Part shown: positions 2,579 through 4,812 of the stretch, piece by piece
Position numbering within the stretch: position 1 is the first letter of the stretch
Layout: each line of letters begins with the position of its first letter
Position numbers and translations under genes: made by a program
Notes under the pieces: model-generated
Told to the model about the DNA's origin: nothing
Seen by the model: only the letters and a program-made list of their open reading frames with translations
Databases searched by the model: none
DNA from: Gordonia humi
GTDB taxonomy: Bacteria > Actinomycetota > Actinomycetes > Mycobacteriales > Mycobacteriaceae
Assembly: GCF_014197435.1 (NCBI RefSeq)
Contig: NZ_JACIFP010000001.1
Location: forward strand, 4,774,001-4,838,000
DNA length: 64,000 nt
Reading direction: 5' to 3'

Positions 2579-2621
2579 CAATCGTGGTGCGACCGTGTAC
2601 CAGACGGTCGCACCACGATTG
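2579..2621 (-). terminator. Perfect 18-bp hairpin between micro-ORFs and mycoloyltransferase
   Basis: Arms 2579-2596 and 2604-2621 are perfectly complementary (18 bp) around a 7-nt loop. It begins 15 bp after the stop of the 28-aa micro-ORF on the minus strand. There is no run of U, which is usual for actinobacterial terminators. It could end the micro-ORF transcript or act as a processing or stability stem that keeps that message abundant relative to the downstream gene. Confidence 0.7.
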
Positions 2622-2635
2622 TCTCGATGCTCGGG

Positions 2636-2722
2636 TCAGAGCGATCCGGTGATGAGCGACGGGATGATCGCCAGTCCGAGTTGGACCAGTTGGCTGATCA
2701 TGTCGATGAATCCGCTGAGCAC
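2636..2722 (-). CDS. 28-aa amphipathic peptide, PorA/PorH-like candidate
   Basis: GTG-started ORF of 28 codons, begins MLSGFIDMISQLVQ and ends ITGSL. The start is supported by a textbook AAAGGAG six bases upstream of the GTG. It has no signal peptide and no charge other than one Asp, and hydrophobic residues recur every three to four positions, predicting one amphipathic or membrane helix; serines near both ends could accept O-acyl groups. Size and character resemble the tiny, unprocessed, O-mycoloylated cell-wall channel peptides PorA (45 aa) and PorH (57 aa) of Corynebacterium, whose genes also lie beside groEL2. It is shorter than those and I see no alignable identity, so this is inference from context. 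It is flanked by strong hairpins and lies 51 nt downstream of a second such ORF. An alternative is a phenol-soluble-modulin-like secreted peptide. Confidence 0.6.
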   Translation of the reverse strand: MLSGFIDMISQLVQLGLAIIPSLITGSL

Positions 2723-2773
2723 AGTCGTCTCCTTTCCTCAGTTCGGTGCGAGCAGGGTGGGTCTACGGGCTTC

Positions 2774-2851
2774 TCAGATGAAGAAGTCCCAGAACTGTCC
2801 CATGATGTTGAAGAAGAAGGTGATCACATCGGTGACCGTTGTACTGCCCAT
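2774..2851 (-). CDS. 25-aa hydrophobic peptide, PorA/PorH-like candidate
   Basis: ATG-started ORF of 25 codons, beginning MGSTTVTDVITFFF and ending QFWDFFI. AGAGAGG lies about 9 nt upstream. It has no signal peptide, two Asp as the only charged residues, an S/T-rich N-terminus (possible acylation sites) and an aromatic-rich C-terminal half. With the 28-aa ORF it forms a two-gene unit on the minus strand, downstream of groEL2 (own hairpin at 3075-3113) and upstream of the mycoloyltransferase. Corynebacterial cell-wall channels are hetero-oligomers of exactly two tiny subunits, so the pairing fits. This is inference from size, pairing and neighbours, not from sequence identity. Too short for ordinary gene callers. 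Confidence 0.55.
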   Translation of the reverse strand: MGSTTVTDVITFFFNIMGQFWDFFI

Positions 2852-3074
2852 GAACTTTCGCCTCTCTTACGCGTCCCGACCGACGGCCGCCTGATTCGTG
2901 CGGCCGACGTCGATTCTGGAACGAGAGCATGTCGCGCATCACACGAAGAGGAACTTCGTTACGCCGGTGAGACCGAGTGAAGTCATTTGCGCCGATCATC
3001 CGAACGAATGGCACGCGTTCGCATGAACAATTGACAGTTGATCGATCGACAGACTCGGACCGCACCCGGACGCG

Positions 3075-3113
3075 CCGAAGGCCGGCCACCCCCTTGGGGT
3101 GACCGGCCTTCGG
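3075..3113 (-). terminator. groEL2 terminator hairpin
   Basis: Arms 3075-3092 and 3096-3113 pair over 18 bp with one C-A mismatch and a 3-nt loop. It starts 44 bp after the groEL2 stop in the direction of transcription. No U tract. It separates groEL2 from the micro-ORF unit, so those probably have their own promoter in 2852-3074, where I could not pick a convincing -10/-35 pair. Confidence 0.75.
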
Positions 3114-3156
3114 TCGAGATCTGCGATCTGGCGCAGGTGTTCCGATCCCGGTGGGA

Positions 3157-4812
<1,656 letters not shown>

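Follow-up and report, generated by a model that had tools for sequence, protein, structure and literature searches.

A conserved pair of micro-peptide genes beside groEL2 and a MytC/Cmt1-type mycoloyltransferase in Gordonia humi and Rhodococcus: a candidate PorA/PorH-like mycomembrane system

Two micro-ORFs between groEL2 and a mycoloyltransferase gene

We found two adjoining micro-ORFs, A and B, on the minus strand of the window (the whole stretch of 64,000 nucleotides of Gordonia humi DNA that was analyzed), where the genes follow one another in the order groEL2, A, a spacer of 51 nt, B and the gene of a 320-aa enzyme with the esterase fold (Table 1). Both the ORFs, with the lengths and positions proposed in the first-pass annotation, and the two flanking genes that it had named, groEL2 and a mycoloyltransferase (here matched to PF00756), were confirmed. 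A and B are the sole ORFs on either strand of the 64-kb window that pass a filter for ATG- or GTG-initiated frames of 20-36 aa with an SD of at least 5 bases, a GRAVY of at least 0.8 and no K, R or H. Their claimed near-absence of charge is borne out by two Asp residues in A, a single one in B and no Lys or Arg in either, and a signal peptide is absent from both, as judged by reading. A good ribosome site had been noted for each; this holds for B, which has a strong one, whereas that of A is a modest GAGAGG, weaker than the AGGAGG of most relatives.

Table 1. Features of the groEL2-downstream locus in the window
Feature	Position	Strand	Description
ORF A	2774..2851	minus	25 codons, ATG start; peptide MGSTTVTDVITFFFNIMGQFWDFFI
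ORF B	2636..2722	minus	28 codons, GTG start; peptide VLSGFIDMISQLVQLGLAIIPSLITGSL
Ribosome site of ORF B, GAAAGGAG	2729..2736	minus	6 nt before GTG
GAGAGG, ribosome-site-like, of ORF A	2861..2866	minus	9 nt before start; read from sequence
Strong hairpin, groEL2 to A	3075..3113	minus	Probable terminator; without U-tract
Strong hairpin, B to mycoloyltransferase	2579..2621	minus	Probable terminator; without U-tract
Mycoloyltransferase, MytC/Cmt1 type, 320 aa	1572..2534	minus	PF00756 match, bit scores, tree, stretch shared with Cmt1
groEL2	3157..4782	minus	Upstream marker of locus

The hairpins said to enclose the pair are indeed strong, the stretch 3070-3120 folding at -42.3 kcal/mol (z -7.7) and the stretch 2570-2630 at -36.2 kcal/mol (z -6.1), with 0 of 200 shuffles equally stable in either case. 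A terminator scan reported neither of them and gave as its sole site a weak one within ORF A; no sigma-70-type promoter was detected at the locus. Because one of the hairpins lies between B and the enzyme gene, co-transcription of these two is not implied. The GC content of the A/B stretch (2625-2999) is ~55 percent, against ~62-70 percent in its flanks. No Pfam or NCBIfam family scores above cut-off for A or B, in line with the expectation that genes of this size are missed by annotation; weak Pfam matches of B and of its homolog in a second genome of the genus, G035 (E 0.05-0.12), are sub-cut-off and were regarded as chance.

Conservation and distribution of the pair

The first search, conducted with B alone against 59 genomes of the same genus, gave one promising match, in G035 (E 0.008, 46 percent identity), the runner-up reaching only E 0.47; in G035, a 24-aa A-like ORF is situated 58 nt upstream of B, in the same order as in the window. 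With a two-row B profile, the pair turned up in additional genera among 401 genomes of the family, and a 12-row A profile recovered A in 19 of these 401, all with E <= 1.9e-6 and with no match between this value and the 0.02 limit. By genus, the carriers of A number 2 of 53 in the window's own genus, 1 of 1 in g12, 1 of 6 in g21, 7 of 28 in g23 and 8 of 18 in g27, counts that assume the genome list to be the same draw as that of the 401-genome search. B lies 46-114 nt downstream of A in 17 of the 19 carriers; the B-like ORF of G069 is longer (42 aa) and B of G316 is interrupted by a contig end, and the B statistics given here are for the 17 carriers with these two left out. A nine-residue pattern yielded 20 matches with at least seven confirmed loci, all of them in Rhodococcus (R. 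phenolicus, R. coprophilus, R. jostii NBRC 16295, R. rhodnii and Rhodococcus CH91, 105337 and HNM0569). Profiles built without own-genus rows (17 rows for A, 15 for B) pick only the two ORFs in the window, with E 1.2e-9 for A and 4.3e-7 for B, scaled to 250000 segments as an estimate for a 5-Mb genome.

Of the 19 carriers, 18 have an A of 25 aa and 17 have an A with a C-terminal Ser; B measures 30 aa in 13 of 17 and terminates in SL, usually as TGSL, in 14 of 17. At the nucleotide level, pN is lower than pS in 130 of 136 pairs of A (17 distinct sequences, mean ratio 0.57) and in 74 of 78 pairs of B (13 distinct sequences, mean ratio 0.48), pair counts that are not independent owing to shared ancestry and that come with a pS near 0.5, i.e., close to saturation. 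Judged by these comparisons, A and B are real conserved genes under purifying selection. Homology was not detected when the A and B profiles were compared with each other. Beyond the family, the profile search of a 397-genome draw of the order gave no confident match and one weak one (G465, E 0.05).

Within its own genus, the pair was found in only 2 of 59 genomes, and the second of these, G035, was not seen beside groEL2. The 56 usable of 57 own-genus groEL2-downstream regions (L028, with only 364 bases, was unusable) held no further pair by gene position, and the weak own-genus profile matches besides the window and G035 were short and nearly all inside long frames, one being in a 36-aa frame of G034. 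A lack of conservation in close relatives, which the first-pass annotation had named as the outcome that would count against it, is thus nearly what the genus displays, and it is the other genera that overturn it.

The pair also occurs in variant settings. In G035 (L006, 59-534), it comes directly after an apparent transposase fragment near a contig end and away from groEL2, which hints at mobility. G184 displays a tandem duplicate (L208, 1501-2301), in which A and B are accompanied by a second A-like ORF of 24 aa and a B-like one of 29 aa, each with an SD, and R. rhodnii (L124, 10001-10356) has a single A and then two B copies of 30 aa. The locus of G162 (L148) is expanded to A, a 37-aa B-like peptide, extra peptides of 23, 30 and 33 aa and three mycoloyltransferase-like genes, one of them cut by the end of the stretch. 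Past the A-B pair of G221 (L201, 1996-2073), there is another 25-aa ORF beginning MGSIG.

Synteny with groEL2 and MytC-type genes

The linkage to groEL2 claimed for the window recurs in Rhodococcus: of the 17 loci that could be tested, 13 have groEL2 upstream of A on the same strand, between 309 nt and 7.9 kb away; R. phenolicus and G035, with only 1.95 kb and 459 nt of upstream sequence, are not among the 17. It was not found upstream in G069, G103, G123 and G316 (7.0-9.8 kb of sequence), and the groEL2-downstream region of G035, on a separate contig, had no pair. A MytC-type gene with at least 55 percent identity to the enzyme in the window occurs within ~2.1 kb in 15 of 19 loci. This neighbor is missing or doubtful in the other four: around the pair of G069, ~10 kb in each direction shows no groEL2 and no MytC, G316 has neither gene in 7.0 kb upstream and offers only 244 nt of downstream sequence, G035 has no MytC-type gene across 14.5 kb downstream (the closest relative, at 40 percent, is 7.6 kb away), and G184 has only a fragment with 32 percent identity.

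Two arrangements predominate, namely groEL2-A-B-mytC in five loci (the window, HNM0569, R. rhodnii, G162 and G221) and groEL2-mytC-A-B in seven (CH91, R. coprophilus, R. jostii, 105337, G248, G195 and G271), two of the latter having an extra enzyme copy after B. Overall, where a MytC-type gene adjoins the pair (15 loci), one is upstream of A in 10 cases, once on the opposite strand. Among congeners, a mycoloyltransferase linked to groEL2 occurs at 7 of 56 usable loci, and the pair was not found there. Five MytC-type loci on Rhodococcus plasmids (L222-L226), examined out of 46 records and annotated as 'alpha/beta hydrolase family protein', showed no convincing peptide alongside; a 25-aa Ser-rich ORF on L225 was rejected, as it overlaps an annotated gene on the opposite strand. 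The other MytC-type gene of the G. humi genome is neighbored by ORFs of 30 aa (TTG), 17 aa (ATG) and 47 aa (GTG), none of which is A/B-like.

The neighboring mycoloyltransferase

Compared with solved structures, the enzyme in the window scores 276.7 and 276.6 bits with two Cmt1 (MytC) entries, 165 with PS1 (MytA) and 114 with Ag85A, which makes Cmt1/MytC (PDB 4h18, 8qhf) its best solved relative. A tree of 34 sequences, built after removal of four duplicates and of fragments below 250 aa, unites Cmt1 and all groEL2-linked enzymes but that of L155 in a clade of 26 taxa (support 0.849). L187, an own-genome paralog that is not at groEL2, belongs to this clade too; PS1 groups with a different own-genome paralog (0.994). 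The genome has eight mycoloyltransferase-like places in all. By bit scores and tree, then, the neighbor is an enzyme of the MytC/Cmt1 class, closest to Cmt1 over PS1/MytA or Ag85, and the earlier claim of a modifying enzyme next door is upheld at this level. In C. glutamicum, Cmt1/MytC is reported to be the isoform exclusively responsible for protein O-mycoloylation (PMC11066868). A stretch of the alignment common to the enzyme in the window and Cmt1 is shorter in PS1 and, variably, in six of the seven other own-genome paralogs, and it may correspond to the loop that has been linked to peptide specificity (PMC5310785).

Within the tree, the enzyme in the window groups with those of Rhodococcus sp. 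HNM0569 and R. rhodnii (0.911), apart from the groEL2-linked enzymes of its congeners. Together with the low GC of the A/B stretch, this grouping suggests horizontal transfer of the locus from a Rhodococcus-like donor.

Peptide character and candidate acylation sites

The column-averaged hydrophobicity of both A and B peaks at 100 degrees, as in an amphipathic alpha-helix, a periodicity that, out of 10000 column shuffles, only 2 reach for A and 17 for B, which agrees with the helical and amphipathic pattern first read from the two ORFs. Among single sequences, less than 5 percent of shuffles reach the hydrophobic moment for every one of the 19 A and for all but one of the 17 B, the exception being B of G162, with 13 percent. 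Across the carriers, there are one to four acidic residues and zero or one Lys/Arg per peptide.

All 16 distinct A sequences of 25 aa and all 13 distinct B sequences of 30 aa have Ser3; a Ser also occupies position 25 in 15 of these A sequences and the penultimate position 29 in every one of these B sequences. The A of the window has no C-terminal Ser, and G035 has an A without any Ser and a B without the penultimate one. The mycoloylated residues of C. glutamicum are S15 in PorA, S56 of 57 in PorH and S37 in ProtX, the latter two penultimate (PMC12632848, PMC5310785), and O-mycoloylation follows no strict consensus, with Thr also usable (PMC11066868). Since PorH and ProtX are modified at a penultimate Ser, we predict the C-terminus of B to be a good candidate site; the further candidates for acylation would be Ser3 of both peptides and the C-terminal Ser of A in the relatives.

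Comparison with known peptide channels and porins

In Corynebacterium, porH and porA are located between groEL2 and the polyphosphate kinase gene and encode signal-less peptides of less than 60 aa, whose channels are hetero-oligomers, except that C. jeikeium and C. urealyticum rely on one peptide (PMC5944148, PMC3792995). Like PorH-PorA of C. glutamicum, A and B are two adjoining short genes downstream of groEL2, with leaderless and helical products that bear Ser, as expected of substrates of a MytC-type enzyme. They differ in length (25 aa for A and 28-30 aa for B, against 57 and 45 aa for PorH and PorA), in the far flank of the locus, where in the window a mycoloyltransferase gene stands in place of the polyphosphate kinase gene, and in the position of the enzyme, which adjoins A/B here, whereas Cmt1/MytC (Cgp_0413) and PorH/PorA (Cgp_3009/3008) of C. 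glutamicum are apart (PMC12632848). No homology of A or B to corynebacterial-type PorH/PorA profiles was found (probabilities of 0.4-1.3 percent), in a comparison that has low power at 25-30 columns and no positive control. The proposed equivalence to the porA/porH locus therefore stands as to groEL2 position, size class, leaderless state and helicity, and falls short as to homology and the downstream neighbor; on this balance, we suggest that the pair would work like PorA/PorH, without calling it a member of that family.

Among single peptides, PorACj of C. jeikeium (40 aa) and PorACur of C. urealyticum (~4 kDa) are tiny helical channel formers that were likewise found through their position at groEL2 (PMC3792995, PMC5944148); unlike A/B, they are homo-oligomers of one peptide, confined to Corynebacterium, and PorACj is longer than A or B. 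ProtX of C. glutamicum is small and mycoloylated at the penultimate Ser, where the Ser of B is conserved, and differs from the A/B pair in that the accessible part of its description mentions no partner peptide (PMC5310785). MspA-type porins (PorARc, PorARr/PorBRr) are cell-wall channels of Rhodococcus and other mycolata, and the Rhodococcus channels described in PMC9233653 are of this type; at ~20 kDa and with a Sec signal peptide, they contrast with the tiny and leaderless A and B, neither of which matches PF09203 (MspA) above cut-off. MspA porins are present in 70 of 70 genomes, comprising the 19 carriers and 51 others where no pair was found, with four matches in the G. humi genome, and we accordingly rejected their absence as a reason for the pair. 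A literature search by title or start of abstract, with few subscription journals covered, returned no description of comparable peptides from either Rhodococcus or Gordonia. For R. erythropolis, a reportedly small channel-forming protein dates from 2000, and it could overlap with A/B.

Micro-ORFs in other groEL2-downstream regions

A uniform filter was applied to 97 groEL2-downstream regions of 4.4 kb each, with L028 dropped as too short. Similar micro-ORFs turned up at 6 of the 15 mycoloyltransferase-bearing loci, as against 2 of the 82 remaining ones (Fisher P 1.2e-4, a value that is indicative only, as the thresholds were chosen after the first pairs were known). Of the two exceptions, L164 has an enzyme further out, at 5.8 kb, and L052 has a 47-aa ORF that is likely a false positive. 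For the other genera alone, the counts are 5 of 7 loci with the enzyme versus 1 of 33 without it; in the own genus, the window alone scores among eight enzyme-bearing loci. In a similar scan, 20 control regions from genus g3, inferred to be Corynebacterium, comprised nine with tandem porH-porA-like ORFs (L172-L179, L181), three with a single porH/porA-like ORF (L171, L180, L184) and eight with none.

Several groEL2-downstream regions feature longer peptides, those of L161 and L164 being similar in character to A and B. L161 (G178, genus g4) encodes three SD-preceded peptides (47, 51 and 53 aa) in the region after groEL2, close to a mycoloyltransferase gene; an internal TGSL is present in two of them, and homology between the three and B was not detected. 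L164 (G115, genus g13) has peptides of 45, 46 and 51 aa downstream of groEL2, two beginning MGS, and its mycoloyltransferase, of the esterase type, lies further downstream of them. A 41-aa Ser/Thr/Gly-rich ORF with an SD occurs in L162 (G082) at 2101-2226 after groEL2, downstream of a MytC-type gene, and a 46-aa ORF with the start MGSTEI and a Ser/Gly/Thr-rich tail in L156 (G191) at 1425-1565 after groEL2, in a stretch where no mycoloyltransferase was found.

A predicted two-peptide mycomembrane system

We posit that A and B are a two-gene unit for signal-less amphipathic helical micro-peptides, which would be exported without a signal peptide, O-mycoloylated on Ser/Thr by the MytC/Cmt1-type enzyme of the adjacent gene in most carriers, and inserted in the mycomembrane, where they would assemble together, most likely into a hetero-oligomeric channel. 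As a whole, this reading of an O-mycoloylated pair with a PorA/PorH-like channel is the one that we favor with moderate confidence. Its parts differ in strength: that A and B are acylated mycomembrane peptides appears likely, and that they form a channel is a call tipped only slightly in its favor. A conserved helix-forming pair that is usually beside an enzyme of a peptide-lipidating type probably represents a novel and unusually small form of the two-peptide channel that Corynebacterium has in its outer membrane, and the sequence evidence supports the existence of a PorA/PorH-like mycomembrane pair outside that genus.

The most serious alternative, to which we assign a distinctly smaller though real weight, is that the two peptides are O-mycoloylated and lodged in the mycomembrane but serve there in some capacity other than a pore, e.g., as a ProtX-like surface component or anchor that ties the mycomembrane to the wall. 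The evidence on acylation and location is identical for this role and for a channel; with MspA porins already in every one of the 70 genomes, a channel need not come from A/B, and a preprint reports PorH and ProtX to be linked to the cell wall (PMC12632848). Against it, the constant pairing, the fixed order and the amphipathic character of both helices look like a two-part assembly. We consider it improbable that A/B are a membrane-active peptide pair, such as a two-peptide bacteriocin, a PSM-like surfactant or type I toxin-like hydrophobic peptides: the small size, amphipathic helix and lack of a leader peptide would fit, but the peptides are anionic to neutral, with hardly any Lys/Arg, and are syntenic with groEL2 and MytC-type genes. 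Yet more improbable is a regulatory role, in which A and B would be upstream ORFs or leader peptides whose translation serves just to control a downstream gene, as might be read from the short, hairpin-flanked ORFs with an enzyme gene downstream in the window; their conservation across genera is at the amino acid level, and the frequent placement of the MytC-type gene upstream of A leaves no constant downstream gene. Chance ORFs in intergenic DNA, frequent as short ORFs are in GC-rich DNA, are refuted by the independent profile matches, the excess of pS over pN and the recurrence of the pair in 19 genomes.

Returning to the O-mycoloylated channel pair, we give equal weight for and against the broader proposal that A/B constitute a second, non-homologous two-peptide mycomembrane channel, of 25 and 28-30 residues with its own mycoloyltransferase adjoining, and that groEL2-mytC is a recurrent site of unannotated mycoloylated micro-peptides.

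Significance

Protein O-mycoloylation is established in Corynebacterium, and mytC orthologs are known from Nocardia, Gordonia and Rhodococcus, some of them inactive in C. glutamicum; in 2017, the same account called conservation of the pathway in other Corynebacteriales not demonstrated (PMC5310785). The A/B locus offers concrete candidate substrates of mycoloylation in Rhodococcus, beside a candidate enzyme, and illustrates how a conserved gene pair can evade annotation through shortness alone. If A and B do form a pore, its subunits of 25-30 residues would be below PorACj, at 40 aa the shortest channel subunit of stated length in the accessible sources, and the pair would provide a minimal model for the passage of leaderless peptides through the inner membrane and their assembly into a mycomembrane channel.
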